NCBI GenBank assembly: GCA_037893245.1
Contig: JBAIAA010000009.1
Location: 2,046,001-2,110,000, forward strand
Reading direction: 5' to 3'
Length of the DNA stretch: 64,000 nucleotides
Source of the DNA: Crossaster papposus
Taxonomy: Eukaryota > Echinodermata > Asteroidea > Velatida > Solasteridae
Below the pieces are notes generated by a model, which was not told the origin of the DNA, did no database searches, and saw only the letters and a program-made list of their open reading frames with translations. A program made the position numbers and the translations under genes. Positions 2,755 to 29,100 of the stretch are shown in pieces. The first letter of the stretch is position 1; each line of letters opens with the position of its first letter.

Positions 2755-2782
2755 CATAGGCCTATGCGGCAATACACGTGTA
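2755..2782. other. paired palindromes of the satellite monomer (example copy)
   Basis: Shown here for one copy; most monomers have it. CATAGGCCTATG (2,755-2,766) is a perfect 12-bp palindrome. Six bases later TACACGTGTA (2,773-2,782) is a perfect 10-bp palindrome with a CACGTG (E-box type) core. Many monomers carry CATATGCCTATG or CATACGCCTATG, which break the first palindrome, and one class has CACATG instead of CACGTG. A protein-binding role is possible but unproven. Confidence 0.8.
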
Positions 2783-7300: not shown

Positions 7301-9740
7301 ATAGGCCTATGAGGCAATACACGTGTACATACATACTCATCAGAAAACATGGCTGCGAATGAGGATAATTTTGTCTACTTATATTTGAGCTGCGAGCCTC
7401 AACGTTGTTCGAGAATGAAGAGACACTCACCAGTCCGACATCTGAGCAAAATATTGCCAAATTTCTCACTGAAAAAAACCAAAAAACTGAGAGACTCATG
7501 CGTCAGGATACTGGTGGCATAGGCCTATGCGGCAATACACGGGTACATACATTCACATAAGAAAACATGGCTGCGAATGAGGATAATTTTCTCGACATAT
7601 ATCTGAGCTGCGAGCCTCAACGTTGTTCGAGAATGAAGATACACTCACCAGCTCGACATCCGAGCCAAAATATTGCCAAATTGTTCACTGGAAAAACAAA
7701 CAAATGAGAGAATCATGCGTCAGGATACTGGCGGCATAGGCCTTTGTGGCAATACACGTGTACATAAATACACATCAGAAAACATGGCTGCGAATGAGGA
7801 TAATGTTCTCGACATATATCTGAGCTGCGAACCTCAACTTTGTTCGAGACTGAAGAGACACTCACCAGCTCGACATCTGAGCCAAAATATTGCCAAATTT
7901 CTCACTGGAACAAACCTAAACTGAGAGACTCATGTGTCAGGACACTGGCGGCATATGCCTATGTGGCAATACACGTTTACGTACAAACACATCAGAAAAC
8001 ATGGCTGCGAATGAGGATAATGTTCTCGACATATATCTGAGCTGCGAACCTCAACGTTGTTCGAGAATGAAGAGACACTCACCAGCTCGACATCCGAGCC
8101 AAAATATTGCCAAATTTCGCACTGGAACAAACCTAAACTGAGAAACTCATGCGTCAGGACACTGGCGGCATATGCCTATGAGGCAATACACGTGTACATA
8201 CTAACACATCAGAAAACATGGCTGCGAATGAGGATATTTTTCTCGACATATATCTGAGCTGCGAACCTCAACGTTGTTCGAGAATGAAGAGACACTCGCC
8301 AGCTCGACATCTGAGCCAAAATATTTCCAAATTTCTCACTAGAAAAAAACCAAACTGTAAGACTCATACGTCAGGACACGGGAGGAATAGGCCTATGAGG
8401 CAATACACGTGTACATACATACACATAAGAAAACATGGCTGCGAATGAGGACAATTTCCTCGACATATATCTGAGCTGCGAGCCTCAACGTTGTTTAAGA
8501 ATGAAGGGACACTCACCAGCCCGACATCTGAGCAACAATATTGCCAAATTTCTCACTGGAAAACAAACAAACTTAGAGACCCATGCGTCAGGATACTGGC
8601 GGCATAGGCCTATGCAGCAATACACGTGTACATACATACACATAAGAAAACATGGCTGCGAATGAGGATAATTTTCGCGACATATATCTGAGCTGCGAGC
8701 CTCAACGTTGTTCGAGAATGAAGAACCACTCACCAGCTCGACATCTGAGCCAAAATATTGCCAAATTTCTCACTGGAACAAACCTAAACTGAGAGACTCA
8801 TGCGTCAGGACACTGGCGGCATATGCCTATGTGGCAATACACGTTTACGTACAAACACATCAGAAAACATGGCTGCGAATGAGGATAATGTTCTCGACAT
8901 ATATCTGAGCTGCGAACCTCAACGTAGTTGGAGAAGGAAGAGACATTCAACACCTCCACATCTGAGCTAACATATTGCCAAAATTCTCACCGGAAGAGAC
9001 CAAAACTTTGAGACTCATACGTCAGGACACGTGCGGCATAGGCCTATGAGGCAATACACGTGTACACGCATAAACATAAGAAAACATGGCTGCGAATGAG
9101 GATAATTTTATGAACTTATATCTGAGCTGCGAACCCCAACGTTGATCGAGAATGAAGAGACACTCGCCAGCTCGACATCTGGGCCAAAATATTTCCAAAT
9201 TTCTCACTGGAAAAAAACCAAACTGTGAGACTCATACGTCAGGACACGGGCGGCAGAGGCCTATACACGTGTACATACATACACATAAGAAAACATGGCT
9301 GCGAATGAGGACAATTTTCTCGACATATATCTGAGCTGCGAGCCTCAACGTTGTTGGAGAATGAAGAGACACTCACCAGCTCAACATCCGAGCCAAAATA
9401 TTGCCAAATTTCTCACTGGGAAAAAACAAACTGAGAGACGCATGCGTCAGGATACTGGCGGCATAGGCCTATGAGGCAATACACGTGTACATACATACTC
9501 ATCAGAAAACATGGCTGCGAATGAGGATAATTTTGTCTACTTATATTTGAGCTGCGAGCCTCAACGTTGTTCGAGAATGAAGAGACACTCACCAGTCCGA
9601 CATCTGAGCAAAATATTGCCAAATTTCTCACTGAAAAAAAACAAAAAACTGAGAGACTCATGCGTCAGGATACTGGTGGCATAGGCTTATGCGGCAATAC
9701 ACGGGTACATACATTCACATAAGAAAACATGGCTGCGAAT
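4324..9740. repeat. 10-monomer higher-order repeat (~2,165 bp)
   Basis: Specific monomer variants recur at about 2,165-bp spacing. The variant with AAACATGGCTGCAAATGGGG is at about 4,755 and 6,920. The variant with CACCAGTCCGACATCTGAGC is at about 5,270, 7,430 and 9,590. The shortened CATAGGCCTATACACG variant is at about 4,926, 7,091 and 9,255 (as CAGAGGCCTATACACG). Units are therefore ten monomers with small indels, present about two and a half times. Confidence 0.8.
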
Positions 9741-12700
9741 GAGGATAATTTTCTCGACATATATCTGAGCTGCGAGCCTCAACGTTGTTTGAGAATAAAG
9801 AGACACTCACCAGCTCGACATCCGAGCCAAAATATTGCCAAATTTTGCACTGGAACAAACCTAAACTGAGAAACTCATGCGTCAGGACACTGGCGGCATA
9901 TGCCTATGTGGCAATACACGTGTACATACAAACACATCAGAAAACATGGCTGCGAATGAGGATATTTTTCTCGACATATATCTGAGCTGCGAGCCTCAAC
10001 GTTGTTCGAGAATGAAGAGACACTCACCAGCTCGACATCTGAGCCAAAATATTGCCAAATTTCTCACTGGAACAAACCTAAACTGAGAGACTCATGCGTC
10101 AGGACACTGGCGGCATATGCCTATGTGGCAATACACGTTTACGTACAAACACATCAGAAAACATGGCAGCGAATGAGGATAATGTTCTCGACATATATCT
10201 GAGCTGCTAACCTCAACGTTGTTCGAGAATGAAGAGACACTCACCACCTCCACATCTGAGCTAACATATCGCCAACATTCTCACCGGAAGAGACCAAAAC
10301 TTTGAGAGTCATGCGTCAGGACACTGGCGGCATAGGCCTATATACATACACATCAGAAAACATGGCTGCGAATGAGGATAATGTTCTCGACATATATCTG
10401 AGCTGCGAACCTCAACGTTGTTCGAGAATGAAGAGACACTCACCAGCTCGACATCTGAGCCAAAATATTGCCAAATTTCTCACTGGAACAAACCTAAACT
10501 GAGAGACTCATGCGTCAGGACACTGGCGGCATATGCCTATGTGGCAATACACGTTTACGTACAAACACATCAGAAAACATGGCTGCGAATGAGAATAATG
10601 TTCTCGACATATATCTGAGCTGCGAACCTCAACGTTGTTCGAGAATGAAGAGACACTTACCAGCTCGACATCCGAGCAAAAATATTGCCAAATTTCGCAC
10701 TAGAACAAACCTAAACTGAGAAACTCATGCGTCAGGACACTGGCGGCATATGCCTATGTGGCAATACACGTGTACACGCATAAACATAAGAAAACATGGT
10801 TGCGAATGAGGATAATTTTATGAACTTATATCTGAGCTGCGAACCTCAACGTAGTTCGAGAATGAAGAGACACCCGCCAGCTCAACATCTGAGCCAAAAT
10901 ATTGCCAACTTTCTCACTAAAAAAAACCCAAACTCTGAGACCCATGAGTCAGGACACTGGCGGCATAGGCCTATGCGGTAATACACGTGTACATACATAC
11001 ACGTAAGAAAACATGGATGCGAATGAGGATAATATTCTCGACTTATATTTGAGCTGCGAACCTCAACGTTGTTAGAGAATGAAGAGACACTCACCAGCTC
11101 GACATCCGAGCCAAAATATTGCCCAATTTCTCACTGGAAAAAAACCTAAACTGAGAGACTCATGCGTCAGGACACTGGCGGCATATGCCTATGTGGCATT
11201 ACACGTGTAAATACAATCACATCAGAAAACATGGCTGCGAATGAGGATAATGTTCTCGACATATATCTGAGCTGCGAACCTCAACGTTGTTTGAGAATGA
11301 AGAGACACTCACCAGCTCGACATCCGAGCCAAAATATTGCCAAATTTCGCACTGGAACAAACCTAAACTGAGAAACTCATGCGTCAGGACACTGGCGGCA
11401 TATGCCTATGTGGCAATACACGTGTACATACAAACACATCAGAAAACATGGCTGCGAATGAGGATATTTTTGTCGACATATATCTGAGCTGCGAACCTCA
11501 ACGTTGTTCGAGAATGAAGAGACACTCGCCAGCTCGACATCTGAGCCAAAATATTTCCAAATTTCTCACTAGAAAAAAACCAAACTGTGAGACTCATACG
11601 TCAGGACACGGGCGGAATAGGCCTACGAGGCAATACACGTGTACATACATACACATAAGAAAACATGGCTGCGAATGAGGACAATTTCCTCGACATATAT
11701 CTGAGCTGCGAGCCTCAACGTTGTTCGAGAATGAAGAGACACTCACCAGCTCGACATCCGAGCCAAAATATTGCCAAATTTCTCACTGGAAAAAACCTAA
11801 ACTGAGAGACTCATGCGTCAGGACACTGGCGGCATATGCCTATGTGGCAATACACGTGTAAATACAAACACATCAGAAAACATGGCTGCGAATGAGGATA
11901 TTTTTCTCGACATATATCTGAGCTGCGAACCTCAACGTTGTTCGAGAATGAAGAGACACTCGCCAGCTCGACATCTGAGCCAAAATATTTCCAAATTTCT
12001 CACTAGAAAAAAAACCAAACTGTGAGACTCATACGTCAGGACACGGGCGGAATAGGCCTATGAGGCAATACACGTGTACATACATACACATAAGAAAACA
12101 TGGCTGCAAATGAGGACAATTTCCTCGACATATATCTGAGCTGCGAGCCTCAACGTTGTTCGAGAATGAAGAGACACTCACCAGCTCGACATCCGAGCCA
12201 AAATATTGCCAAAGTTCTCACTGGGAAAAAACAAACTGAGAGACTCATGCGTCAGGATACTGGCGGCATAGGCCTATGAGGCAATACACATGTACATACA
12301 TACACATCAGAAAACATGGCTGCGAATGAGGATAATGTTCTCGACATAGATCTGAGCTACGAACCTCAACGTTGTTCGAGAATGAAGAGAGACTCACCAG
12401 CTCGACATCCGAGCCAAAATATTGCCAAATTTCGCACTGGAACAAACCTAAACTGAGAGAATCATGCGTCAGGACACTGGCGGCATATGCCTATGTTGCA
12501 ATACACGTGTACATACAAACACATCAGAAAACATGGCTGCGAATGAGGATATTTTTCTCGACATATATCTGAGCTGCGAACCTCAACGTTGTTGGAGAAT
12601 GAAGAGACATTCAACACCTCCACATCTGAGCTAACATATTGCCAAAATTATCACCGGAAGAGACCAACACTTTGAGACTCATACGTCATGACTCGGGCGG

Positions 12701-12829
12701 CATATGCCTATGTGGCAATACACGTGTACACGCATAAACATAAGAAAACATGGCTGCGAATGAGGATAATTTTATGAACTTATATCTGAGCTGCGAACCT
12801 CAACGTAGTTCGAGAATGAAGAGACACTC
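4990..12829. repeat. 8.2-kb tandem duplication of satellite, copy 1 (no transposon)
   Basis: This stretch matches 13,206-29,538 almost base for base once the transposon and its extra ATA are removed. The offset is 8,216 bp upstream of the insertion point and about 16,710 bp downstream of it. Shared rare variants include GAGACGCCCAGGCGT (6,412 and 14,628), the CAGTCCGACATC monomer and TTAGAGACCCATG. Differences seen include an extra C in ATACACCGTG near 6,896. Boundaries are good to a few tens of bases. Confidence 0.85.
6441..6443. other. empty insertion site equivalent (single ATA)
   Basis: In copy 1 of the 8.2-kb duplication the sequence reads GGATACTGGCGGC-ATA-GGCCTATGCAGC. In copy 2 the same context is split by the transposon, with ATA on both sides (14,657-14,659 and 23,151-23,153). 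One ATA here against two there fixes the element borders and a 3-bp target duplication. Confidence 0.9.
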
Positions 12830-13229
12830 GCCAGCTTAACATCTGAGCCAAAATATTGCCAACTTTCTCACTGAAAAAAACCAAACTCTAAGACCCATGA
12901 GTCAGGACACTGGCGGCATAGGCCTATGCGGTAATACACGTGTACATACATACACATAAGAAAACATGGATGCGAATGAGGATAATATTCTCGACTTATA
13001 TTTGAGCTGCGAACCTCAACGTTGTTCGAGAATGAAGAGACACTCACCAGCTCGAGATCCGAGCCAAAATATTGCCAAATTTCTCACTGGAAAAAAACCT
13101 AAACTGAGATACTCATGCGTCAGGACACTGGCGGCATACGCCTATGTGGCAATACACGTGTAAATACAAACACATCAGAAAACATGGCTGCGAATGAGGA
13201 TAATGTTCTCGACATATATCTGAGCTGCG
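12450..13229. repeat. block shared with 32,199-32,978
   Basis: This segment reappears at an offset of about 19,749 bp. Shared markers are GAGAGAATCATGCG, the ACGTCATGACTCGGG variant, CAGCTTAACATCTGAG and CTCGAGATCCGAG. It covers the end of copy 1 of the 8.2-kb block, which is missing from the end of copy 2, so the array was rearranged after or during that duplication. Confidence 0.7.
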
Positions 13230-14656
13230 AGCCTCAACGTTGTTGGAGAATGAAGAGACACTCACCAGCTCAACATCCGAGCCAAAATATTGCCAAATTT
13301 CTCACTGGGAAAAAACAAACTGAGAGACGCATGCGTCAGGATACTGGCGGCATAGGCCTATGAGGCAATACACGTGTACATACATACTCATCAGAAAACA
13401 TGGCTGCGAATGAGGATAATTTTGTCTACTTATATTTGAGCTGCGAGCCTCAACGTTGTTCGAGAATGAAGAGACACTCACCAGTCCGACATCTGAGCAA
13501 AATATTGCCAAATTTCTCACTGAAAAAAACAAAAAAACTGAGAGACTTATGCGTCAGGATACTGGTGGCATAGGCCTATGCGGCAATACACGGGTACATA
13601 CATTCACATAAGAAAACATGGCTGCGAATGAGGATAATTTTCTCGACATATATCTGAGCTGCGAGCCTCAACGTTGTTCGAGAATGAAGATACACTCACC
13701 AGCTCGACATCCGAGCCAAAATATTGCCAAATTGTTCACTGGAAAAACAAACAAATGAGAGACTCATGCGTCAGGATACTGGCGGCATAGGCCTTTGTGG
13801 CAATACACGTGTACATAAATACACATCAGAAAACATGGCTGCGAATGAGGATAATGTTCTCGACATATATCTGAGCTGCGAACCTCAACGTTGTTCGAGA
13901 ATGAAGAGACACTCACCAGCTCGACATCTGAGCCAAAATATTGCCAAATTTCTCACTGGAACAAACCTAAACTGAGAGACTCATGCGTCAGGACACTGGC
14001 GGCATATGCCTATGTGGCAATACACGTTTACGTACAAACACATCAGAAAACATGGCTGCGAATGAGGATAATGTTCTCGACATATATCTGAGCTGCGAAC
14101 CTCAACGTTGTTCGAGAATGAAGAGACACTCACCAGCTCGACATCCGAGCCAAAATATTGCCAAATTTCGCACTGGAACAAACCTAAACTGAGAAACTCA
14201 TGCGTCAGGACACTGGCGGCATATGCCTATGAGGCAATACACGTGTACATACTAACACATCAGAAAACATGGCTGCGAATGAGGATATTTTTCTCGACAT
14301 ATATCTGAGCTGCGAACCTCAACGTTGTTCGAGAATGAAGAGACACTCGCCAGCTCGACATCTGAGCCAAAATATTTTCAAATTTCTCACTAGAAAAAAA
14401 CCAAACTGTAAGACTCATACGTCAGGACACGGGTGGAATAGGCCTATGAGGCAATACACGTGTACATACATACACATAAGAAAACATGGCTGCGAATGAG
14501 GACAATTTCCTCGACATATATCTGAGCTGCGAGCCTCAACGTTGTTTAAGAATGAAGGGACACTCACCAGCCCGACATCTGAGCAAAAATATTGCCAAAT
14601 TTCTCACTGGAAAACAAACAAACTTAGAGACGCCCAGGCGTCAGGATACTGGCGGC

Positions 14657-14659
14657 ATA
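14657..14659. repeat. target-site duplication ATA, left
   Basis: The left flank reads GGCGGC-ATA followed directly by the element end TAGACCGTGG. The matching ATA is at 23,151-23,153. The unoccupied monomer has one ATA, at 6,441-6,443. Confidence 0.9.
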
Positions 14660-14673
14660 TAGACCGTGGGCCG
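14660..14673 (+). repeat. left terminal inverted repeat
   Basis: TAGACCGTGGGCCG, an exact reverse complement of the element's last 14 bases (23,137-23,150). After this the two ends differ for about 20-30 bp before a second shared block. Confidence 0.95.
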
Positions 14674-14973
14674 TCACCACTTTTCTTGTCAACTTGTTTA
14701 CAGGGGTCTTTGGCACTATTATTTTGCATCCCTATTCAAAAGCTAACATCGAATGCTTCCCAAAAATGTAATGTTCAAATTTTTTTATGTGGTTTTAGCC
14801 GAAATCTCGTTGAAAAAACCCCCGAGAATTTCTCATTTGGAACTTGTAAATTTCCGGGGTCACAAATATGTTGATAAGTAAGAAGTGATCTGATTGGTTG
14901 TGAAAAATTGTTTGGGAAAGTATTGTCAAATCAGAACGTTTGTTATATACTCATTGGAATCCTCGCAATCATC
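14674..14973 (+). promoter_or_regulatory. 5' leader and presumed promoter region of the transposon gene
   Basis: 300 bases between the left terminal repeat and the preferred start codon, holding the left subterminal repeat. An inverted CCAAT motif (ATTGG) lies at 14,893-14,897 and a TATATA at 14,944-14,949. The latter is only 25 bases before the ATG, too close for an ordinary TATA box unless translation starts downstream. An upstream in-frame ATG at 14,908 would add 22 mostly hydrophobic residues. No other gene is visible here. Confidence 0.35.
14694..14713 (+). repeat. left subterminal inverted repeat
   Basis: TTGTTTACAGGGGTCTTTGG, 34 bp inside the left end, is the exact reverse complement of 23,088-23,107, which lies 43 bp inside the right end. 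Such subterminal blocks are commonly transposase-binding sites; that role here is inference. Confidence 0.9.
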
Positions 14974-16275
14974 ATGGCGGACGACCAAACGCCCTGTGTC
15001 TGTCATGTTGTGGAGGTTGAAAACGACGTGATTCGACCTTTCTCCGATACCTCTTGGGCCAAATTGGTGGAGTCTGTCAGTAAATGGAAGTCACTGGATG
15101 GACTGGAACGTACAATTTCAGCAAATTTCGATCCGGATTCCGCGAAAAAGGCCGGCTTTCACCGTAATTGTTATCAACGGTTCACGGACAAATGTCGCAT
15201 AGCTCAAGCGAAGAAACGGATCGCAAAGGGTAAGCCTAAAGCAGCCCATGTCCCCGTCGTAGCCGTAGACATTGATGATGTGGTTGAAGTGTCCGAACCA
15301 CCTACCAAGCGACATTTAAGATCAGAGTTTAGCAGTATTTCTGGGCCACATGTCGATCGCAGAAGCGTGCATGTTTTGCCGCGAATGTGCTTGATTTGTA
15401 GAGATGTAAAGCGCACGTATAACAAAGGCATGGGTAAACGAGTACTGGAGAAGTTGACAACATGTGAAACAGAAGGAAGATCACTGAAACAAGCGGCAGA
15501 ACAGAAGCAAGATGAAAAGCTGCTGGTCCATTTAAGAGATCAAGATTTAGTCAGCATAGAAGTACGGTACCACAGGTCATGCTACAGAAACTACACTCGC
15601 TGTTTGTCAAACAAGTACCAGAAGAAAGCCGAAGAGGACAGTGATGTCATGTATGCACCATCATTCAAAGTTTTCTGCACCGATGTAATTGAGACGAGAA
15701 TTATTAATGGCGGTGAAGTGCTGAGAATGAGAACACTGAAGAATCTCTTCGTAAAAACAATCAGTAAAACTGAGAACTGTAATCCCGTCAACTACAGAAA
15801 CAGTGCCTTAAAAAACAGGCTGTTGAATAAATATGGTGACAAACTACAGTTTATCCGTCCTCATATTCGTGAGTGTGAACTGGTTCTTGCTCAGTGTTCT
15901 GTTTCACCTGGTCAAATTTTGAGCATTGCAGAGTCTGAAAGTGAGACTGATGACGAGGAACAAATGGAGCAAGCAGGACCCACAACAAAAATGAGAAATG
16001 CTGGTGGAAATGATCTACGAGACATTTACCATGCTGCGATGAGGTTGCACGGCATTATTGAGGATGCAGAAAGTGTTGACATATGGCCCCCAGGAGAAGA
16101 AGACCTCACACCAGAACGGTGCAAAGAACTGATACCGATTCAGTTATTCAACTTTCTGGCCTGGTGTACTGGAGTCACCTGTACCTTCTGCTCAGATGAT
16201 TATGTGCAAGTCTCAGAAGATACACAGAGAAAGCTGTTGTCTATTGGTCAAGACCTGATCTATTTGACCTCAAGG
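14974..16275 (+). CDS. exon 1: N-terminal Cys/His modules
   Basis: 434 codons. Two similar modules end in an HRxCY motif: HRNCYQRF at residues 63-70 and HRSCYRNY at 200-207. Each is preceded by a Cys pair (CVC at 8-10, CLIC at 139-142), which suggests zinc binding. A basic stretch follows the first module and an acidic, Ser-rich stretch follows the second (SESETDDEE). The exon ends in phase 0 at AGG before the donor GTAAGG (16,276). The frame runs on to a stop at 16,300-16,302 if unspliced. Confidence 0.75.
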
Positions 16276-19200
16276 GTAAGGATGAGCCAATTACTATTTT
16301 AGAAAACCATATGTCTTTAACATTTTAATGAAACATAAAGTAGGCCTACCCCCAAAAAAAACTGGACTTCAATTAGGTCAAACAAAATAAATGGTGTGTT
16401 TAAGAACAATTCCAGGTAGGTACTGTAGTTGGGAAGTTATTTGTATTTGTTCTTGGTTGTGTCCAGTTACAGTGTGGAAAATGGTCGTTGCAAATAATTG
16501 AAACCAGTTCATTAAAAATTATCGACTAGCATTGAGGTCGGTAATTTGTTTGCAACATTTATAGACCATGTTTGTTGAACATTTGTATGAAGTGAAAATC
16601 CATGTACAGTGTGTACCTTTACCTGTATTTTACAGGGACGAAAACATACTCCAAAGCATATTGCCCTAGGAATGGCAGTGCGGCATCTGACAGGATCCTC
16701 AACAATGATACGACTTCTGAATGGCTTTGGTCACTGCACTTCACATTCCGCAGTATTGCAGCACGATACAGCATTGGCCGTCCAGCAACTTGCAGGAGAG
16801 GGAATCCCACCAGGATTTCATCAAGGGGTGTTTACAACGCTCGTTTGGGATAACAACGATTTCGGCGAAGAAACTTTAACTGGTAGGTAATTGCTACATG
16901 TACATGTACATGTACATGTTTATGTTTAACCCCAAACCTCTTTAATAATTTTTAAGGGGAAATAAGGATTGTGGATATCGAAGGAATAAATAGGGGCCAA
17001 GGGCCTTGCTACAAGTAATGCTGAAAATATCAATGTCTGCGGATCACATACAAAAGAAATATGATTTTGCTGAATTGTTTAAACATTGGTCACTTTCAGG
17101 GAAAGGAACCACGCATAATACAAATGGAATCATCCTGCAAAGGACCCAGGCCGACTGCACCAGTTCCACCTTGGCATGTACCACAACCAGAGCAGTGACC
17201 TTTGCCAAGTCCAAGAAAAGAACACTGGAACCACCACCTAGTGATATCAAGGAGTACCATGGCAAACCACGTCATGGGCCAGCACCAACAGGTTACCAGT
17301 GTTTCAATTTGACCTTTTGGCACTGATGTTGATGTTGATATCTGTTCCTGTTGTTGTAAGTACTAACCATTGCATGAATTTTGAACTTTTTAATTGTTAT
17401 TGTTATTTTCAATGTTCATTTTACGGTTGAGACAACCGAAGTGCCAAATAGTTTTGTTTTTGTTTTATTTAATTACCTTTGTCCCTTTTTGTTACTCGAG
17501 ACATTTTAACAATCACATCTTTAAATTGTATCATTCTTTATGTTGCACTCCAGAGTAATAAAAAAAAGTAGCACCTGACATGGTTAACATGTTAAGTATG
17601 ATATTTGTAAATACTCTGGGAATTAATCCCCAATGAATACATTGCATGAAATTGATAAGCAATTTTTTTGTTTTTAAAGTTTGAATGATGTGCAGTGTAA
17701 TACAGGCAGTCAGTACTAGGCACAGGGAGAATCAAATTCAATAATTTTTGGGCATTTTCTGTTATTGTAATGTTGTTTTTACTAACATTTACATTTACTA
17801 CACAAATAAACCACAAGGAAAACTGACTAGGTAAATTTGCATAAATTTCAAAAAGAAAAAGATTCCCAGGTTATGTAATTAGTTAATTATTGTGAAAAAT
17901 TTAAATATTACGCAGGGACTGAAGTGTCTTTTGAGGTGGACAGGAGCATTCAGGAAGCAACTGTCAGCATGGACCTTGCAATGTGGATGTGCAAGACTGT
18001 ACAGGTTGGTTCTCTTAAAACAAACTACATACCAGAAAAAAATTGTAACCATCTGGCTGGCCGACAATCACTGGAAATTGATATTTTTTTAAAACCTGTT
18101 TTTTTAAATACTGCCCGATTCATCAAAATTCAGTTATTGAACCAGTTTGTGTCAGTTGACATGTATACGCAAAATGTCCTGAATTTTAAAATGGATGACT
18201 GATGAACATGCCACGAGCAACTCGCAGCCGGCATCTATGGGTGTGCTACCCATAAGATGCCGGCCTGAATCATTCAATTTATTGTTTTTAATTTTTTTTT
18301 TTAGATCCTGTAGATTTGCCACTGACATTGTTATCTTTTAAATATTACTGTAATTGTTTTATTGTATTTTGTCAGAGCAGGGGAGATTTCTTTTTTACTC
18401 AACCACCCCCCCCCCCCCCACCCCCCCGTGGCAGCGTGAAGATGTTACAGTCAAAGTATCGGGCACACATCAAGGAATGCTGCACAAGAAACATCAACTA
18501 TGCTTTCTGGTGTTCTTACTTAGAAATGGTACAACTTCTCCTCCTTTTTGTTAGAGCAACACGAGAAGGAGCATGGGAGTTGCATCTGTCAGCTGTCAGA
18601 GATATGCTTCCATGGTACTTTGCTTATGGGAGGGTGAATTATTCTCGCTACCTGCCTGTCTATCTTCAAGAGATGTTGGCACTCCCAGAAACCCATCCAA
18701 GTGTGCATGAGAAGTTCTGTGATGGAGAGTTTGCTGTACAGCGGTCAAGTGACTACGCTTTTACAATGACAGCTTGTGACCAGATAATCGAACAGACGTT
18801 CAACCGTGACTCGAAGACCAAAGGTGGTATGGTGGGGTTCACTCAAAACAGAGGTGCTGTCAGCCGATGGATTCTAAGCCATCCCTCACGGGCTGCTATC
18901 ACAAATGTCTGTTTCTCCCAATCAGGAAAAACGGAGTCTGAGTCAGTTCACAAAGACCTCGCAGCCTCCAGAAAAGTAAAGGATGAGTCAGATGTTCAAG
19001 AGGTGGTAACAACTCTAACATCTTTGGGATCACCATTTTCTTTGGAAGATGACAACCAGCTTGTCCACTTAACAGCAGGCTATGTAGCTACAGATGATAT
19101 AAAGTCTGATCTCATGGATGCCTATGCCAAAGGAAAAGATGCCTACGTGCAGTTTCAACAGCAGCGTCTTTCAGAAGGGTCAAAGGACTTATTTGAAAAG

Positions 19201-20790
19201 ATGACAATGGTTAAATGCAAGACCTTCTCAGATATTTGCAAGAAGCAAAAGTCAAAGGGAACGATGAACAGCCTTTCCCTGAAAGAAAACAGAAATCTCT
19301 TGGGAAGAATGCTCGCCATTGCACAAGTAAGAGATCTTGACATGCATGAAGTGATGACTTATTCACTTGGGTCTGTGCCACCAGCATTGGCTAACTTTGA
19401 TGGAACCATGAGAAAGACCAACAAAGCTGTAATGGCACATGTGCTGGAAGAAAAATGTCCTGATGCTGTGGTCAACTTACCATTTGAAGGTGAGACAGCT
19501 GTCATCATTGATGCTATGGCTATGATTCAGGTACAGAGCAAACTACCTGCCACATTTGGCGAGTTTGTGTTTAGTGTTCTGCACCAGGTTGTCTCTATTG
19601 CATCACAGTTCAGTGCTACCAGAGTGGATTTTGTAATTGACAGGTATGAAGAAGTGTCTATCAAGAATGCCGAAAGAATGAGAAGAACAAGTGCCGGCAC
19701 CTATGACGAGATACGAATAACAAGGGCAGGTCAAAAAATGCCAAGGCAGTTCAAGAAGTTCCTTGCATGTGGGAAGAATAAAGAGGGTCTGTTATCTTTT
19801 CTGGTAGACTCGTGGAAAAAGTCTGAACCACACCGTCTGAAAAATGTGACACTGTATGCTACTGAAGGTCAGGATTGCTTCAAGCTTCAGACTGTTAACA
19901 GCGTGTTGGTTATCAGTGAAGTACCTGAATTGCACTGTGACCATGAAGAGGCAGATACACGTGTCTTTCTCCATGCACAGCATGCGTCTAATGTTGGTAA
20001 GGCTGTGAACGTCGTAATTCGTAGCCCAGATACAGATGTCCTTGTGTTGGCAGTAAGTTGCGTCAAAAGTCTGCATACCCAGCTGTTTCAACATTTGCCG
20101 GGGAAAAGTAGTCGTATCGTACATGTCAACAAAATAGTTGATAAACTAGGGGAGAAACCAGCACAGGCTCTCATTGGACTGCACTCTCTTTCTGGTTGTG
20201 ACTCTGTCAGTGCATTGTGGGGGAAAGGCAAGAAGAAGTTTGTCAAGGTGTTGTTGAACAGTGAAAGTCATGTTACCACATTCCTCCAATTGGGTGCAGA
20301 CTGGACAGTCACAAAGCAGTTGACAGAGCAGATTGAAAGATTTTTTTGCGAGTTGTATGACCAAAAACAGTGCAACAACATCAACGATGTTCGATACAAC
20401 TGCTTTCGGCTTGGCCATAATGACAGTGCGCTGCCTCCAAATCATGACAGTTTGGTTCTACACATCAGTCGAGCAAATTACCAGACAGCTGTGTTTAGGC
20501 GATGTCTATTGCAGACAATCGGTGCACCTAATCCAGATGGCCATGGGTGGCAGTGTTCTGGAAATGACCTTGTCATACAGTGGATGACTTTGCCACCAGC
20601 ACCAGATTCTGTCATGAATTACATCAAGTGTAAATGCAAGAAGTCATCATGTGATACACGCAGATGTCCCTGCACTAAAGCAACGTTGCCGTGTACAGAT
20701 CTTTGCCAATGTACATCCTCCAAATGTACAAACAGACGTGATGACGTAGAGACCAGACCAAGTGGTGATGAAAGTGATGACACCGACTGA
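14974..20790 (+). CDS. transposon-encoded protein with XPG/FEN1-like nuclease and CXC domain (five exons)
   Basis: Proposed exons are 14,974-16,275; 16,636-16,882; 17,100-17,291; 17,916-18,004; 18,451-20,790. They join in frame to 1,389 residues. The start at 14,974 has a strong context (ATCATGG). Cys/His modules lie at C8-x-C10 with H63-x2-C66, and C139-x2-C142 with H200-x2-C203. An XPG/FEN1-like signature follows: VIIDAMAMI (D964), VDFVIDRY (D1003, D1007), HEEADTR (E1109, E1110, D1112), SPDTDV (D1137, D1139) and SGCDS (D1194) followed by a GKGKKK stretch. At about 1337-1369, C-x-C, CPC and CQC pairs form a tesmin/TSO1-type cluster. In XPG/FEN1 nucleases such acidic residues bind metal for DNA cleavage; here a role in transposition is inferred. 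Compared with relatives as I remember them, about 200-250 residues between exons 4 and 5 may be missing. It is probably nuclear, but no localisation signal was assigned. Confidence 0.75.
16276..16635 (+). other. intron 1
   Basis: 360 bp. Donor GTAAGG and acceptor TTTTACAG are both typical, and the phase is 0. The intron is AT-rich, has stops in all frames and shows no other feature. Confidence 0.7.
16636..16882 (+). CDS. exon 2: conserved middle region
   Basis: 247 bp, starting GRKHTPKHIALG and ending DNNDFGEETLTG across the splice. It contains HLTGS, FGHCTSHS and TLVWDNNDFGEE, which I recognise as conserved blocks in this transposon protein family. Acceptor TTTTACAG precedes it and donor GTAGGT (16,883) follows, phase 1. 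Confidence 0.7.
16895..16918 (+). repeat. (TACATG)4 microsatellite
   Basis: Four perfect TACATG units in intron 2 (16,883-17,099), starting 12 bases after the proposed donor. The rest of the 217-bp intron has no recognised feature. Confidence 0.9.
17100..17291 (+). CDS. exon 3: conserved middle region
   Basis: 192 bp, continuing the conserved LTG-KGTTHNTNGIILQ block and then a basic, proline-containing stretch (KSKKRTLEPPPSD). Acceptor CTTTCAG is good. The donor GTTACC (17,292) is weak but is the position that keeps phase 1 with exon 4. Read-through meets an in-frame TGA at 17,324. A stronger-looking GTAAGT lies near 17,356, beyond that stop. Confidence 0.6.
17292..17915 (+). other. intron 3
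   Basis: 624 bp with weak donor GTTACC and acceptor TTACGCAG, phase 1. It is AT-rich with stops in all frames. No separate gene or repeat is recognised. Confidence 0.5.
17916..18004 (+). CDS. exon 4: short middle exon
   Basis: 89 bp encoding a segment with FEVDRSIQEA and MDLAMWMCKTVQ. Acceptor TTACGCAG precedes and donor CAG/GTTGGT follows, phase 0. It is included because it joins exon 3 and exon 5 in frame and resembles the family's region ahead of the nuclease-like part. It is the least certain exon. Confidence 0.5.
18227..18264. repeat. inverted repeat / hairpin in intron 4
   Basis: GCCGGCATCTATGGGT (18,227-18,242) and ACCCATAAGATGCCGGC (18,248-18,264) form a 16-bp stem with one bulged base and a 5-base loop (GTGCT). 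It is GC-rich in an AT-rich intron. It is not a bacterial-type terminator in this setting and may be the scar or end of a small insertion. Confidence 0.85.
18406..18427 (+). repeat. poly-C tract
   Basis: C14-A-C7 just upstream of the exon 5 acceptor. It can serve as a pyrimidine tract, but it is also a place where sequencing or assembly errors are likely. Confidence 0.9.
18451..20790 (+). CDS. exon 5: nuclease-like region and CXC cluster
   Basis: 779 codons plus stop TGA. After SKYRAHIKECC comes a block with FVRATREGAWELHL, MLPWYFAYGRVNYSRYLPVY, ACDQIIEQTFNRDSKTKGG and NRGAVSRWILS, conserved in this family. The XPG/FEN1-like signature lies at 19,498-20,250 and the CXC cluster near 20,629-20,727; the last residues are acidic (DESDDTD). 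The exon start at 18,451 follows TTACAG and fits exon 4 phase 0. The frame is open upstream to 18,316, but that part is a proline/poly-C stretch and is treated as intron. Confidence 0.8.
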   Translation, partial: SKYRAHIKECCTRNINYAFWCSYLEMVQLLLLFVRATREGAWELHLSAVRDMLPWYFAYGRVNYSRYLPVYLQEMLALPETHPSVHEKFCDGEFAVQRSSDYAFTMTACDQIIEQTFNRDSKTKGGMVGFTQNRGAVSRWILSHPSRAAITNVCFSQSGKTESESVHKDLAASRKVKDESDVQEVVTTLTSLGSPFSLEDDNQLVHLTAGYVATDDIKSDLMDAYAKGKDAYVQFQQQRLSEGSKDLFEKMTMVKCKTFSDICKKQKSKGTMNSLSLKENRNLLGRMLAIAQVRDLDMHEVMTYSLGSVPPALANFDGTMRKTNKAVMAHVLEEKCPDAVVNLPFEGETAVIIDAMAMIQVQSKLPATFGEFVFSVLHQVVSIASQFSATRVDFVIDRYEEVSIKNAERMRRTSAGTYDEIRITRAGQKMPRQFKKFLACGKNKEGLLSFLVDSWKKSEPHRLKNVTLYATEGQDCFKLQTVNSVLVISEVPELHCDHEEADTRVFLHAQHASNVGKAVNVVIRSPDTDVLVLAVSCVKSLHTQLFQHLPGKSSRIVHVNKIVDKLGEKPAQALIGLHSLSGCDSVSALWGKGKKKFVKVLLNSESHVTTFLQLGADWTVTKQLTEQIERFFCELYDQKQCNNINDVRYNCFRLGHNDSALPPNHDSLVLHISRANYQTAVFRRCLLQTIGAPNPDGHGWQCSGNDLVIQWMTLPPAPDSVMNYIKCKCKKSSCDTRRCPCTKATLPCTDLCQCTSSKCTNRRDDVETRPSGDESDDTD

Positions 20791-21081
20791 ATTCACAGCA
20801 AGATTGAGGTAGACAAGGCAGTCGGCTTGTCTGGTTTTCATCTGAATCAATCGCCTATGGTGGGGCTGTCAAGTGCGCATGAGTTGCAAGTTGACTGATT
20901 TATGTTATCTTGTATTTATCTTGTCTTAGATTTGGAAGGCATTCAGTGCGGGTTGTTTTTTGGTCGAGTCGGGTAGAAGGTTCCATTCAGGAATTGTCCA
21001 AGGGTATAACGACCGGATGTGTTGAAGATTTAAAGCGCTATTGGTTTGTCTTGTAGTACGTCTAGTGCTCAATTATTTTAA

Positions 21082-21130
21082 CGGGATTATTTTAACATCG
21101 CCGAACCCACGGGCGGGATTATTTTTAACG
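21082..21130 (+). repeat. short direct repeat pair
   Basis: CGGGATTATTTTAAC (21,082-21,096) and CGGGATTATTTTTAACG (21,114-21,130), 32 bp apart, in the 3' noncoding part. Function unknown. Confidence 0.7.
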
Positions 21131-21312
21131 AAACTCGATCCGAAGCGGGTTCAGGCTGATAGTGCCGGGAAGCACACCCACGCATTTCCAGCCTTGCTCG
21201 CTGCTGACTTAAATTTCCGAACTTGAACTTGGTGTGTTTATGCGTCATCCGTTTTGAATTTGGGGAAATATTTGCGTTTATATACGTCATCCGGCGCGAA
21301 CTGGTTAACTGG

Positions 21313-21603
21313 TCACTGGGTAGATGATTTTGCAGGTGGGAAATACCACAATGTACTTGGAATTAGATCGTAAATCTCTGTTTACATGTAGATGGTGTAT
21401 AATCGAGCTCTGGTGCATCTTTCTTCCAAGAGATCCCAGCCTAGCTCACTTGATGGGCTACTGTAGTCCAGTAGAATGAACCTGGCTGCACATCTTTGAA
21501 CTTTTTCAAGCACACTGATGTGTTACATTGGTGAGGGTCGAACAAGTGCTTTATATGCTATTCCTTTGGTGTGTTTATCAGCTAAATCATGTTCTTTTGA
21601 GCA
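21313..21603 (-). pseudogene. LINE reverse-transcriptase C-terminal fragment (fossil)
   Basis: Read on the minus strand in a single frame from 21,603, the translation contains AYKALVRP, then LEKVQRCAARFILLDYSS, then LGWDLLEERCTRARLYTIY. These occur in the order and spacing of the C-terminal end of CR1/L2/Jockey-type LINE ORF2 proteins (LVRP; LEKxQRRAARF; LGWDxLExRR). Two in-frame stops interrupt it before the TGA at 21,313-21,315, and the rest of the element is not seen. It is a dead fragment, in antisense orientation, inside the 3' part of the DNA transposon. Confidence 0.7.
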
Positions 21604-22334
21604 GGCTGATTTTACTGCACATGGTTTGTCTATTCCAAGTCATATCAGAAGAAAGTTTTACTGGTTAAGATTAGTTTTCTTTTTTGAGTCACTCGCATGG
21701 ATAATACCATGAGATGCAGGGGACTCGCAAAAAGCAAGCTTCTCCAGTGTGAGCCCCCTGTATACAGTGTAAATCTAGGTTCACCCAATTAAAAGAAAAA
21801 GATGCATTTTATAATTGTCTAAATTCTCACCGTGTATACCATTCAAAACATGATATTTTCACAATTTTTTTATTTTTTTTTCCTTTTTATTTGTTTCTCT
21901 CTCACCCTGACCTAGGGTCAAATTACAAGAGACAACTGCTAATATTGTGATAAGGCCAAGTAATTTTAATAACTTAAAATTGATACAACAAGTTGTTAAT
22001 GTATTCAAACAACTTAGCCTTCGAACTTCAAATATATAGTGAAAAGGGATAATTTGAAAGATAAGAGCTGTGCATTTCCTATATTTTTTAAAATTTTTCC
22101 CATTGTTGTATTTGAAGAGATATCAGTGCAATTGACACAATTAATACATTATTTGTAATAATTCATTTCCCCTCTGGTCCATCAGAATTATTTATTATTT
22201 ATTATGTTCATTGTCTGTAGTTCTGTGACATTAATTGTATATCCCGGAAAATGAAATAAATAAAAATTATTTAATATCCCGGCAGTTGTGCAATTGGTCG
22301 AAATATATGTACATGTTGTATTTGGAAAATGAAA

Positions 22335-22340
22335 AATAAA
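22335..22340 (+). terminator. candidate polyadenylation signal
   Basis: AATAAA followed immediately by GTGTGTTCTATT, a GU-rich sequence of the type found downstream of animal poly(A) sites. Two further AATAAA overlap at 22,255-22,264. If used, the 3' UTR would be about 1.5 kb. Confidence 0.35.
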
Positions 22341-22766
22341 GTGTGTTCTATTAAAACATCAGCTAAATCATACAAGTATGTAGCTATTGTTTCTTATTCG
22401 ATTTTAAAGTGAGATATTCATGTGTGGACAATCGGTCATGTTTTTACCTTATCACAGGACGAGCCATTGCCTATAGACTAAGCAAAAAAAACCACCAGTA
22501 AACATGTACAGTGTATGTGTACATGTGGCTGCTGTGTCAAACTGAGGAATGTCCCCCAAAACCTTGTTTTGAGTTTTGTATTCGTCCAATAATACTACAA
22601 AAAAAAAAAATTAAATCGAAATCGATACAATTTAGTTTTTATTTGTTTACTTTTTCAGTTAGTCAAAGTATATAAATTCCACACTAAATTGTTGTAAGGA
22701 AAAAATACCCCTAAAAGTGGAAAAACAGATTGTTTTTCATGACAACTGGCAGCGCAAATGGGTATC

Positions 22767-22783
22767 TTTTTTTTTTTTTTTTT
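22767..22783 (+). repeat. T17 homopolymer
   Basis: A run of 17 T. It could be the reversed poly(A) tail of a retroposed fragment, but no such fragment is recognised beside it. Confidence 0.85.
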
Positions 22784-23087
22784 GAAAGTTGGCGGGATAT
22801 TGTTAAAGTGTATGCAGCATTTCTTTGGAATAAACTAAGTAAATTTAGAATCAAAGGAACCATTGTTAAGCCAACAAATTTGAGCTTTATCATGGTGTTA
22901 ACAAAAAAGTCGAATGTGAGGCTTATTCCTCATTATGATATAGCAGATCACATATTTGAGCCTATACAAGCATACATACATGTTTGGGGATTTCGTTTTA
23001 GAAAGTGAACAAAGGCATTAATATGAACATTGCAAATTATTACTATATACATCTGAAACTATGATTTGGAGCACATATCAGGTTGCC

Positions 23088-23107
23088 CCAAAGACCCCTG
23101 TAAACAA
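23088..23107 (-). repeat. right subterminal inverted repeat
   Basis: CCAAAGACCCCTGTAAACAA, the exact reverse complement of 14,694-14,713. Confidence 0.9.
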
Positions 23108-23136
23108 ACTCCTTTTCTAAACATTTATTCAGGGTC

Positions 23137-23150
23137 CGGCCCACGGTCTA
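23137..23150 (-). repeat. right terminal inverted repeat
   Basis: CGGCCCACGGTCTA, the exact reverse complement of the first 14 bases of the element. Confidence 0.95.
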
Positions 23151-23153
23151 ATA
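23151..23153. repeat. target-site duplication ATA, right
   Basis: ATA directly after the right terminal repeat, continuing into GGCCTATGCAGC of the satellite. Confidence 0.9.
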
Positions 23154-26100
23154 GGCCTATGCAGCAATACACGTGTACATACATACACATAAGAAAACAT
23201 GGCTGCGAATGAGGATATTTTTCTCGACATATATCTGAGCTGCGAGCCTCAACGTTGTTCGAGAATAAAGAGACACTCACCAGCTCGACATCTGAGCCAA
23301 AATATTGCCAAATTTCTCACTGGAACAAACCTAAACTGAGACACTCATGCGTCAGGACACTGGCGGCTTATGCCTATGTGGCAATACACGTTTACGTACA
23401 AACACATCAGAAAACATGGCTGCGAATGAGGATAATGTTCTCGACATATATATGAGCTGCGAACCTCAACGTTGTTGGAGAATAAAGAGACATTCAACAC
23501 CTCCACATCTGAGCTAACATATTGCCAAAATTCTCACCGGAAAAGACCAAAACTTTGAGACTCATACGTCAGGACACGGGCGGCATAGGCCTATGAGGCA
23601 ATACACGTGTACACGCATAAACATAAGAAAACATGGCTGCAAATGGGGATAATTTTATGAACTTATATCTGAGCTGCGAACCCCAACGTTGTTCGAGAAT
23701 GAAGAGACACTCGCCAGGTCGACATCTAGGACAAAATATTTCCAAATTTCTCACTGGAAAAAAAACAAACTGTGAGACTCATACGTCAGGACACTGGCGG
23801 CATAGGCCTATACACGTGTACATACATACACATAAGAAAACATGGCTGCGAATGAGGACAATTTTCTCGACATATATCTGAGCTGCGAGCCTCAACGTTG
23901 TTGGAGAATGAAGAGACACTCACCAGCTCAACATCCGAGCCAAAATATTGCCAAATTTCTCACTGGGAAAAAACAAACTGAGAGACGCATGCGGCAGGAT
24001 ACTGGCGGCATAGGCCTATGAGGCAATACACGTGTACATACATACTCATCAGAAAACATGGCTGCGAATGAGGATAATTTTGTCTACTTATATTTGAGCT
24101 GCGAGCCTCAACGTTGTTCGAGAATGAAGAGACACTCACCAGTCCGACATCTGAGCAAAATATTGCCAAATTTCTCACTGAAAAAAACCAAAAAACTGAG
24201 AGACTCATGCGTCAGGATACTGGTGGCATAGGCCTATGCGGCAATACACGGGTACATACATTCACATAAGAAAACATGGCTGCGAATGAGGATAATTTTC
24301 TCGACATATATCTGAGCTGCGAGCCTCAACGTTGTTCGAGAATGAAGATACACTCACCAGCTCGACATCCGAGCCAAAATATTGCCAAATTGTTCACTGG
24401 AAAAACAAACAAATGAGAGAATCATGCGTCAGGATACTGGCGGCATAGGCCTTTGTGGCAATACACGTGTACATAAATACACATCAGAAAACATGGCTGC
24501 GAATGAGGATAATGTTCTCGACATATATCTGAGCTGCGAACCTCAACTTTGTTCGAGACTGAAGAGACACTCACCAGCTCGACATCTGAGCCAAAATATT
24601 GCCAAATTTCTCACTGGAACAAACCTAAACTGAGAGACTCATGTGTCAGGACACTGGCGGCATATGCCTATGTGGCAATACACGTTTACGTACAAACACA
24701 TCAGAAAACATGGCTGCGAATGAGGATAATGTTCTCGACATATATCTGAGCTGCGAACCTCAACGTTGTTCGAGAATGAAGAGACACTCACCAGCTCGAC
24801 ATCCGAGCCAAAATATTGCCAAATTTCGCACTGGAACAAACCTAAACTGAGAAACTCATGCGTCAGGACACTGGCGGCATATGCCTATGAGGCAATACAC
24901 GTGTACATACTAACACATCAGAAAACATGGCTGCGAATGAGGATATTTTTCTCGACATATATCTGAGCTGCGAACCTCAACGTTGTTCGAGAATGAAGAG
25001 ACACTCGCCAGCTCGACATCTGAGCCAAAATATTTCCAAATTTCTCACTAGAAAAAAACCAAACTGTAAGACTCATACGTCAGGACACGGGAGGAATAGG
25101 CCTATGAGGCAATACACGTGTACATACATACACATAAGAAAACATGGCTGCGAATGAGGACAATTTCCTCGACATATATCTGAGCTGCGAGCCTCAACGT
25201 TGTTTAAGAATGAAGGGACACTCACCAGCCCGACATCTGAGCAAAAATATTGCCAAATTTCTCACTGGAAAACAAACGAACTTAGAGACCCATGCGTCAG
25301 GATACTGGCGGCATAGGCCTATGCAGCAATACACGTGTACATACATACACATAAGAAAACATGGCTGCGAATGAGGATAATTTTCGCGACATATATCTGA
25401 GCTGCGAGCCTCAACGTTGTTCGAGAATGAAGAACCACTCACCAGCTCGACATCTGAGCCAAAATATTGCCAAATTTCTCACTGGAACAAACCTAAACTG
25501 AGAGACTCATGCGTCAGGACACTGGCGGCATATGCCTATGTGGCAATACACGTTTACGTACAAACACATCAGAAAACATGGCTGCGAATGAGGATAATGT
25601 TCTCGACATATATCTGAGCTGCGAACCTCAACGTAGTTGGAGAAGGAAGAGACATTCAACACCTCCACATCTGAGCTAACATATTGCCAAAATTCTCACC
25701 GGAAGAGACCAAAACTTTGAGACTCATACGTTAGGACACGTGCGGCATAGGCCTATGAGGCAATACACGTGTACACGCATAAACATAAGAAAACATGGCT
25801 GCGAATGAGGATAATTTTATGAACTTATATCTGAGCTGCGAACCCCAACGTTGATCGAGAATGAAGAGACACTCGCCAGCTCGACATCTGGGCCAAAATA
25901 TTTCCAAATTTCTCACTGGAAAAAAACCAAACTGTGAGACTCATACGTCAGGACACGGGCGGCATAGGCCTATACACGTGTACATACATACACATAAGAA
26001 AACATGGCTGCGAATGAGGACAATTTTCTCGACATATATCTGAGCTGCGAGCCTCAACGTTGTTGGAGAATGAAGAGACACTCACCAGCTCAACATCCGA

Positions 26101-29100
26101 GCCAAAATATTGCCAAATTTCTCACTGGGAAAAAACAAACTGAGAGACGCATGCGTCAGGATACTGGCGGCATAGGCCTATGAGGCAATACACGTGTACA
26201 TACATACTCATCAGAAAACATGGCTGCGAATGAGGATAATTTTGTCTACTTATATTTGAGCTGCGAGCCTCAACGTTGTTCGAGAATGAAGAGACACTCA
26301 CCAGTCCGACATCTGAGCAAAATATTGCCAAATTTCTCACTGAAAAAAAACAAAAAACTGAGAGACTCATGCGTCAGGATACTGGTGGCATAGGCTTATG
26401 CGGCAATACACGGGTACATACATTCACATAAGAAAACATGGCTGCGAATGAGGATAATTTTCTCGACATATATCTGAGCTGCGAGCCTCAACGTTGTTTG
26501 AGAATAAAGAGACACTCACCAGCTCGACATCCGAGCCAAAATATTGCCAAATTTTGCACTGGAACAAACCTAAACTGAGAAACTCATGCGTCAGGACACT
26601 GGCGGCATATGCCTATGTGGCAATACACGTGTACATACAAACACATCAGAAGACATGGCTGCGAATGAGGATATTTTTCTCGACATATATCTGAGCTGCG
26701 AGCCTCAACGTTGTTCGAGAATGAAGAGACACTCACCAGCTCGACATCTGAGCCAAAATATTGCCAAATTTCTCACTGGAACAAACCTAAACTGAGAGAC
26801 TCATGCGTCAGGACACTGGCGGCATATGCCTATGTGGCAATACACGTTTACGTACAAACACATCAGAAAACATGGCAGCGAATGAGGATAATGTTCTCGA
26901 CATATATCTGAGCTGCTAACCTCAACGTTGTTCGAGAATGAAGAGACACTCACCACCTCCACATCTGAGCTAACATATCGCCAACATTCTCACCGGAAGA
27001 GACCAAAACTTTGAGAGTCATGCGTCAGGACACTGGCGGCATATGCCTATATACATACACATCAGAAAACATGGCTGCGAATGAGGATAATGTTCTCGAC
27101 ATATATCTGAGCTGCGAACCTCAACGTTGTTCGAGAATGAAGAGACACTCACCAGCTCGACATCTGAGCCAAAATATTGCCAAATTTCTCACTGGAACAA
27201 ACCTAAACTGAGAGACTCATGCGTCAGGACACTGGCGGCATATGCCTATGTGGCAATACACGTTTACGTACAAACACATCAGAAAACATGGCTGCGAATG
27301 AGAATAATGTTCTCGACATATATCTGAGCTGCGAACCTCAACGTTGTTCGAGAATGAAGAGACACTTACCAGCTCGACATCCGAGCAAAAATATTGCCAA
27401 ATTTCGCACTGGAACAAACCTAAACTGAGAAACTCATGCGTCAGGACACTGGCGGCATATGCCTATGTGGCAATACACGTGTACACGCATAAACATAAGA
27501 AAACATGGTTGCGAATGAGGATAATTTTATGAACTTATATCTGAGCTGCGAACCTCAACGTAGTTCGAGAATGAAGAGACACCCGCCAGCTCAACATCTG
27601 AGCCAAAATATTGCCAACTTTCTCACTAAAAAAAACCCAAACTCTGAGACCCATGAGTCAGGACACTGGCGGCATAGGCCTATGCGGTAATACACGTGTA
27701 CATACATACACGTAAGAAAACATGGATGCGAATGAGGATAATATTCTCGACTTATATTTGAGCTGCGAACCTCAACGTTGTTAGAGAATGAAGAGACACT
27801 CACCAGCTCGACATCCGAGCCAAAATATTGCCCAATTTCTCACTGGAAAAAAACCTAAACTGAGAGACTCATGCGTCAGGACACTGGCGGCATATGCCTA
27901 TGTGGCATTACACGTGTAAATACAATCACATCAGAAAACATGGCTGCGAATGAGGATAATGTTCTCGACATATATCTGAGCTGCGAACCTCAACGTTGTT
28001 TGAGAATGAAGAGACACTCACCAGCTCGACATCCGAGCCAAAATATTGCCAAATTTCGCACTGGAACAAACCTAAACTGAGAAACTCATGCGTCAGGACA
28101 CTGGCGGCATATGCCTATGTGGCAATACACGTGTACATACAAACACATCAGAAAACATGGCTGCGAATGAGGATATTTTTGTCGACATATATCTGAGCTG
28201 CGAACCTCAACGTTGTTCGAGAATGAAGAGACACTCGCCAGCTCGACATCTGAGCCAAAATATTTCCAAATTTCTCACTAGAAAAAAACCAAACTGTGAG
28301 ACTCATACGTCAGGACACGGGCGGAATAGGCCTATGAGGCAATACACGTGTACATACATACACATAAGAAAACATGGCTGCGAATGAGGACAATTTCCTC
28401 GACATATATCTGAGCTGCGAGCCTCAACGTTGTTCGAGAATGAAGAGACACTCACCAGCTCGACATCCGAGCCAAAATATTGCCAAATTTCTCACTGGAA
28501 AAAACCTAAACTGAGAGACTCATGCGTCAGGACACTGGCGGCATATGCCTATGTGGCAATACACGTGTAAATACAAACACATCAGAAAACATGGCTGCGA
28601 ATGAGGATATTTTTCTCGACATATATCTGAGCTGCGAACCTCAACGTTGTTCGAGAATGAAGAGACACTCGCCAGCTCGACATCTGAGCCAAAATATTTC
28701 CAAATTTCTCACTAGAAAAAAAACCAAACTGTGAGACTCATACGTCAGGACACGGGCGGAATAGGCCTATGAGGCAATACACGTGTACATACATACACAT
28801 AAGAAAACATGGCTGCAAATGAGGACAATTTCCTCCACATATATCTGAGCTGCGAGCCTCAACGTTGTTCGAGAATGAAGAGACACTCACCAGCTCGACA
28901 TCCGAGCCAAAATATTGCCAAAGTTCTCACTGGGAAAAAACAAACTGAGAGACTCATGCGTCAGGATACTGGCGGCATAGGCCTATGAGGCAATACACAT
29001 GTACATACATACACATCAGAAAACATGGCTGCGAATGAGGATAATGTTCTCGACATAGATCTGAGCTACGAACCTCAACGTTGTTCGAGAATGAAGAGAG

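Follow-up and report, generated by a model that had tools for sequence, protein, structure and literature searches.

Is the 8,491-bp sequence that interrupts a satellite array of the asteroid Crossaster papposus a complete transposon, and to which kind of transposon does it belong? This element occupies positions 14660-23150 of the stretch analysed here (the window: 64,000 nucleotides, contig JBAIAA010000009.1 of assembly GCA_037893245.1, positions 2,046,001 to 2,110,000 of the forward strand; positions below are those of the window unless stated otherwise), and its limits could be fixed to a single base. With good probability, it is an internally deleted copy of a cut-and-paste transposon from a large family in whose protein a FEN/XPG-like nuclease and a CXC tail accompany a transposase core, AcademX being the most likely assignment. 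It may best be regarded as an ordinary member of a known transposon kind that is unusually well documented.

Borders of the element and its insertion into the satellite array

The following features delimit the element and its target.

14657-14659, no strand: left 3-bp target duplication, ATA
14660-14673, plus strand: left 14-bp terminal inverted repeat (TIR), TAGACCGTGGGCCG
14694-14713, plus strand: left arm of a subterminal inverted repeat, perfect 20-bp pair
23088-23107, minus strand: right arm of the same 20-bp pair
23137-23150, minus strand: right 14-bp TIR, perfect reverse complement of TAGACCGTGGGCCG
23151-23153, no strand: right 3-bp target duplication, ATA
4990-12829, no strand: core of the first copy of a duplicated satellite block, without the element (block alignment)
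6435-6455, plus strand: empty target site in the first satellite block, 120 bp being identical to the joined flanks
13206-29538, no strand: core of the second copy of the block, with the element (block alignment)

Each of the four strings that make up the TIRs and the subterminal arms occurred only once within the window, and a perfect 14-bp inverted match between both 100-bp ends was found in none of 20,000 mononucleotide shuffles. According to Tandem Repeats Finder, a 217-bp satellite covers positions 1-14659 and resumes from position 23151 onward, directly abutting both sides of the element. Joining of the flanks with a single ATA reduced the anchor-to-anchor step from 8,713 bp to 219 bp, steps of 216-218 bp representing 239 of the 254 satellite anchor steps in the window. 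In addition, the exact empty sequence GGCGGC-ATA-GGCCTATGCAGC was retrieved three times in the array, at positions 6435, 8598, and 25307. The initial annotation had described perfect 14-bp TIRs, a 3-bp ATA duplication, internal 20-bp inverted repeats, and base-precise limits inside homogeneous satellite, all of which were recovered. The combination of these ends, the duplication, and the empty site indicates cut-and-paste movement with a 3-bp staggered joining to the target.

The empty sister site is located on the same contig, approximately 8.2 kb from the element. The cores of both block copies, with the element removed, differed by 17 mismatches and one single-base gap per approximately 7,840 bp, a count from which the strongly divergent block edges were excluded; the entire local block alignment, 8,173 columns long, contained 55 mismatches and 10 gap positions. 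As this near-identical 7.8-kb tandem block retains the empty site, the insertion is recent, and the 17 differences provide a bound on its age. Since the target is intact in the first block, the element was inserted after the block duplication, or was heterozygous at the time of insertion; that a copy in the first block was lost by precise excision would be a less parsimonious alternative.

Concerning the satellite itself, the anchor spacings suggest higher-order units of approximately 2.16 and 2.39 kb. A coding function of the satellite was rejected, as the mismatches among its monomers (254, eight of which were excluded for divergence) were distributed as 581, 489, and 620 over the three codon positions and stops occurred in 32 of 246 monomers.

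Copies with the same ends elsewhere in the genome

A search of the genome (1.02 Gb, 1,841 contigs) returned 20 exact TIR matches, versus 1 and 0 with the reversed control. Eighteen of these formed nine inverted pairs, every one of which was flanked by a 3-bp duplication (ATA for the window copy, and TAT, TTA, TCA, ATA, ATT, CCT, CTT, and AAC). A tenth pair, C381, consists of an exact right end and a one-mismatch left end, both flanked by TTA, around a rearranged interior. Hence, all ten pairs carry 3-bp duplications, mostly of differing sequence, in line with the ends and duplication length initially annotated for the window copy; the refuting condition named in the initial annotation, namely copies with other ends or another duplication length, did not arise. 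Furthermore, C444 possesses one exact left end (L020, positions 201-214) next to an unrelated interior, with a three-mismatch right-end match at position 15165; an exact right end was absent from the 20 kb examined. The left 301 bp of the element were found at 12 genomic places with at least 96% identity (two of these starting at base 7) and at three places with 83% identity. The 217-bp satellite, which flanks the window copy, was absent from the 200-bp flanks of the eight other exact pairs and from the tested ends of C381 and C444 (one each).

Gene structure and internal deletion

The gene of the element can be read as follows.

14974-16275, plus strand: exon 1, 434 codons, open
16636-16882, plus strand: exon 2, containing VWDNND with the candidate first catalytic D
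17100-17291, plus strand: exon 3, KGTTHNTNGIILQ
17916-18004, plus strand: exon 4, based on the spliced model and sibling comparison
18376-18429, plus strand: open stretch behind a cryptic acceptor, corresponding to intron 4 sequence in sibling L011
18406-18430, no strand: deletion scar in a poly-C tract, approximately 634 bp being absent compared with L011 (reference positions 4254-4887)
18430-20790, plus strand: remainder of exon 5, open up to the stop

The spliced nuclease/CXC gene of the initial annotation was upheld in part. Indeed, five exons with GT-AG borders join without a stop into a reading of 1,414 amino acids. However, its last acceptor is cryptic, as a comparison with L011, the longest sibling (9,609 bp; a protein of 1,597 codons, one of them a stop), revealed that the first 54 bases of the last exon of the model are intron sequence. 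Exon 5 of L011 uses a different acceptor, counts 984 codons, and contains the block that is missing from the window copy. The deletion begins in the poly-C tract of intron 4 and reaches exon 5, by which the true acceptor and 594 nucleotides, or the first 198 codons of exon 5, were lost. These codons include the DQAIY/RLGEFH block, which is kept in 11 of the 11 relatives whose frame extends that far, two of these rows coming from one family and one being the sibling of the window copy. The gene can therefore not be called complete, as had been proposed.

The other copies are damaged too. An in-frame stop interrupts exon 1 of L011, and the seven other copies with exact TIRs (L012-L018) have deleted or rearranged interiors, involving several different deletions. 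Counting the deleted window copy, none of the nine exact-TIR copies appeared intact, while an intact copy may exist beyond those examined. Two copies at separate loci with different duplications, L014 and L017, share a 4.26-kb gene-less structure that differs by one mismatch and one gap, which is best explained by a gene-less copy moved by a borrowed enzyme. When the first 2.6 kb were compared, divergence from the window copy amounted to 0.39% for L011, 0.39% for L012, and 0.43% for L015, the mutual divergence of these four copies being 0.39-0.50%; the other five exact-TIR copies were 1.37-2.16% away from the window copy.

Intron 4 displayed two additional features. A strong hairpin (GCCGGCATCTATGGGT...) is present at positions 18225-18267, an 80-base stretch folding at -32.4 kcal/mol. 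Further, approximately 463 bp of intron 4 of L011 (3928-4390) are absent from the window copy, L012, and L015, and probably represent a secondary insertion.

Nuclease and CXC regions

Two regions downstream of the deletion were recognised.

19480-20250, plus strand: FEN/XPG-like nuclease region (acidic columns, profile search)
19510, 19639, 19945, 19948, 19954, 20029, 20035, and 20200, plus strand: first bases of the conserved acid codons (nuclease alignment)
20626-20736, plus strand: CXC (tesmin/TSO1-like) cysteine cluster (Pfam and profile searches)

The eight acidic columns were preserved in 25 to 26 of the 26 nuclease rows, some of which are near-duplicates, and their order is presumably that of the FEN/XPG nucleases. 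A profile made from these 26 rows matched human EXO1 with E=0.0068 for the whole sequence, over two collinear stretches. A single-sequence structure model of the region had a mean predicted local distance difference test score of 34.7 and was not used for a fold search. With respect to the tail, the Pfam family TCR (CXC) was found in 10 of 13 rows (best E=1.8e-6), the tail of the window copy itself scoring 23.2 bits (E=8.9e-5), below the cut-off of 23.5, and LIN54 was matched by the family profile with E=0.0011. Other candidate matches were rejected: histone H2B in PDB (best E=0.00094; 0.01) covered 38 residues and was recovered by neither of the family-profile searches at E<=10, PHROGs returned a single weak and unrelated match (E=0.16), and two NCBIfam families with one member each were judged to be due to chance.

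Putative transposase core, relatives, and shared termini

Candidate catalytic residues were sought in a 13-row protein alignment, in which the frame of L031 begins too late for both the D and the E considered here. The D of DQAIY, DQAVY, or DEAIY was present in 11 of the 11 rows reaching that column and a later E in 12 of the 12 rows reaching theirs; the window copy has this E without the D of the DQAIY block. Judging from residue conservation, DN.D, DQAIY, and the later E likely constitute a DDE set. Pfam family DUF6589 was detected in 6 of 13 rows at E<=0.5 (best 8.3e-6) and covers the DQAIY block in L039, L043, and P0001, with E values of 0.003-0.038, under the Pfam cut-off; the literature searched contained no mention of this family.

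Matches to the nuclease region were abundant, with at least 104 in the genome, which is a lower bound, 102 of 1,698 candidates having been scored. Of the matches, 26 were listed with an open frame of more than 1,500 codons, in one case with a stop falling within the matched stretch. Many related transposase genes lie in such frames, for instance among L033-L047, and several of them are near-identical across loci, pointing to a large and partly recent expansion.

Outside this genome, the degenerate pattern HEEADTRxxLHA was retrieved from two contigs in the species genomes, namely L001 (a planctomycete bin) and L002 (a Bathymodiolus symbiont), both of which carry relatives of this transposase and probably represent eukaryotic contamination of prokaryotic genomes. 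The L001 protein has 1,466 uninterrupted residues and shares 43% identity over 755 positions and 33% over 446 positions with the window protein; it includes approximately 240 residues that are absent from the window copy, and no convincing match to this block was retrieved within the window. Searches with the exon 5 protein yielded no relatives among viral contigs, species genomes, and phages, nor did HEEADTRxxLHA and a second pattern match any viral contig.

The right ends of relatives were read at the point where the similarity between sister copies stops. These ends were TAGGCCGTGGGCC for L031/L032, TAGGCCATGGGCC for L038/L047, TAGACCATGGGATG for C641/C827 (similarity extending one base beyond), and TAGGCTATGGGCCG for L029 (similarity with L030 stopping two bases sooner). 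Consequently, five families, that of the window element included, have the end TAGRCNRTGGG in common; for the four relative families, one end each was read, without a duplication, and no position could be assigned to the left terminus of C641/C827. Similarly, L001 carries TAGGCAGTGGGCCG in the correct place and orientation, with two mismatches to the window TIR, a match of this quality appearing somewhere in 17 of 200 shuffles. A scan of 30 loci for similar endings gave a match in six (the one in L028 not being a terminus) and none in 24; for at least L023 and L033-L036, the terminus fell outside the DNA examined.

Classification

An AcademX lineage of the Academ superfamily was reportedly set out by Kojima in 2020, and we take the Academ nuclease to be of the XPG type. 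In the available passages of the literature, target duplications are 3 or 4 bp for AcademX and 9 or 10 bp for AcademH, with a relation to a nuclease and a helicase, respectively (PMC10045372), and Academ elements are abundant in bivalves, with a mean curated length of 5,565 bp (PMC10294476). The element studied here shares two features with AcademX, namely a 3-bp duplication in the nine exact pairs and C381, and a transposon-encoded nuclease, as indicated by the acidic columns and the EXO1 match, which is weak per stretch. The features of AcademH were not encountered, as no duplication among the ten was 9 or 10 bp long and no helicase appeared when the window protein and P0001 were scanned against Pfam. 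Three-bp duplications, a FEN/XPG-like nuclease, and no detected helicase thus fit AcademX as printed. The element hence belongs probably, albeit not provenly, to the AcademX branch, by comparison with its printed description, and the Academ label of the initial annotation is retained with this qualification.

Harbinger elements have a 3-bp target too, TWA. This assignment was rejected, since TTA was found in two of the ten duplications, the others being ATA (twice), TAT, TCA, ATT, CCT, CTT, and AAC.

Proposed mechanism and alternative explanations

In the proposed mechanism, the full-length protein would recognise the ends, cut them, and rejoin them through a DDE-type site, the middle acid of which would lie in the DQAIY block. 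The nuclease may assist in cutting or rejoining, perhaps by trimming the flaps of target gaps or of excision ends, and the CXC tail may bind DNA. As the window copy is unable to make the full-length protein, the enzyme that inserted it in trans probably came from a sibling. The deletion would have arisen during an earlier gap repair, internal deletions of DNA transposons being attributed to abortive gap repair in the passages available (PMC4161770); a deletion after insertion is the less likely course. The ten duplications, the shared termini, and the 26 relatives with open frames of more than 1,500 codons offer an entry point to the role of the nuclease in transposition.

Several points weigh against this reading. 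The two EXO1 stretches are individually weak (E=0.22 and 540), and EXO1 was matched with E=0.076 when the 13-row profile was used. Moreover, a Pfam scan of the nuclease rows gave no match to an XPG family, 5_3_exonuc_N being matched by one of the 26 rows with E=0.21. The candidate first D (DN.D) is visible in just two proteins, those of the window and L001, and the DDE assignment, derived from conserved residues, is putative. No intact sibling that may have served as an enzyme source was present among the copies examined, and the deletion could have followed the insertion. Lastly, the likeness to AcademX is one of printed description.

This last point would equally suit a separate superfamily, AcademX-like in nuclease and duplication length yet not Academ, as would the CXC tail and the TAGRCNRTGGG ends, which the literature passages do not describe for Academ. 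Such a superfamily is nevertheless unlikely, since a nuclease and a 3-bp duplication without a helicase are what is described for AcademX in the passages of PMC10045372, and the initial annotation likewise named Academ, from family knowledge. Alternatively, the window copy may encode a short in-phase protein, with nuclease and CXC regions and no middle block, that acts on its siblings, for instance as a repressor. The removal of exactly 198 codons from exon 5, the cryptic acceptor that keeps phase with exons 1-4, and the uninterrupted nuclease and CXC parts are in favour of this possibility; yet it is very unlikely, as the protein is a prediction from sequence, an in-phase join has a one-in-three chance, and a copy within satellite is perhaps silent. 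Slightly less probable still is a distinct, very abundant superfamily, with a DDE-like core, a FEN/XPG nuclease, a CXC tail, and TAGRCNRTGGG ends, whose in-phase deletion copies would regulate their siblings through a nuclease-CXC protein. That the element is a complete and autonomous Academ copy, its spliced gene intact and its short centre natural to the family, is scarcely credible. The stop-free joining of the five exons agrees with this reading, but all 11 sibling and relative rows that reach the missing block possess it, and what replaces this block in the joined protein is a poly-proline stretch read from the intron. A deleted copy of a cut-and-paste transposon, most likely of the AcademX branch, is therefore preferred.

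Comparison with known systems

The nuclease region resembles the XPG/FEN nucleases, such as EXO1, in the presumed order of its acidic motifs and in a GCD..G.GK stretch, whereas it is part of a transposon protein here and its alignment is limited to short stretches (E=0.0068). Similarly, the CXC cluster has the cysteine spacing of tesmin and LIN54, yet it is located within a transposon protein and a short stretch alone aligns (E=0.0011). With internally deleted transposons of the Ds type, as presented in the passages available (PMC4161770), the window copy shares intact ends around a deleted interior, several different sibling deletions being found here; movement of the window copy in trans is putative. 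Compared with AcademH, the transposase core is presumably related, whereas a helicase and 9- or 10-bp duplications, described there in the available passages (PMC10045372), contrast with 3-bp duplications and no detected helicase here. The closest likeness is to AcademX as described in print, which involves a nuclease in the transposase, 3-bp duplications, and no helicase detected; the present elements measure 8.5-9.6 kb, compared with the mean of 5,565 bp given for curated bivalve Academ elements in the passages available (PMC10294476), and the window copy differs from that description by its internal deletion.

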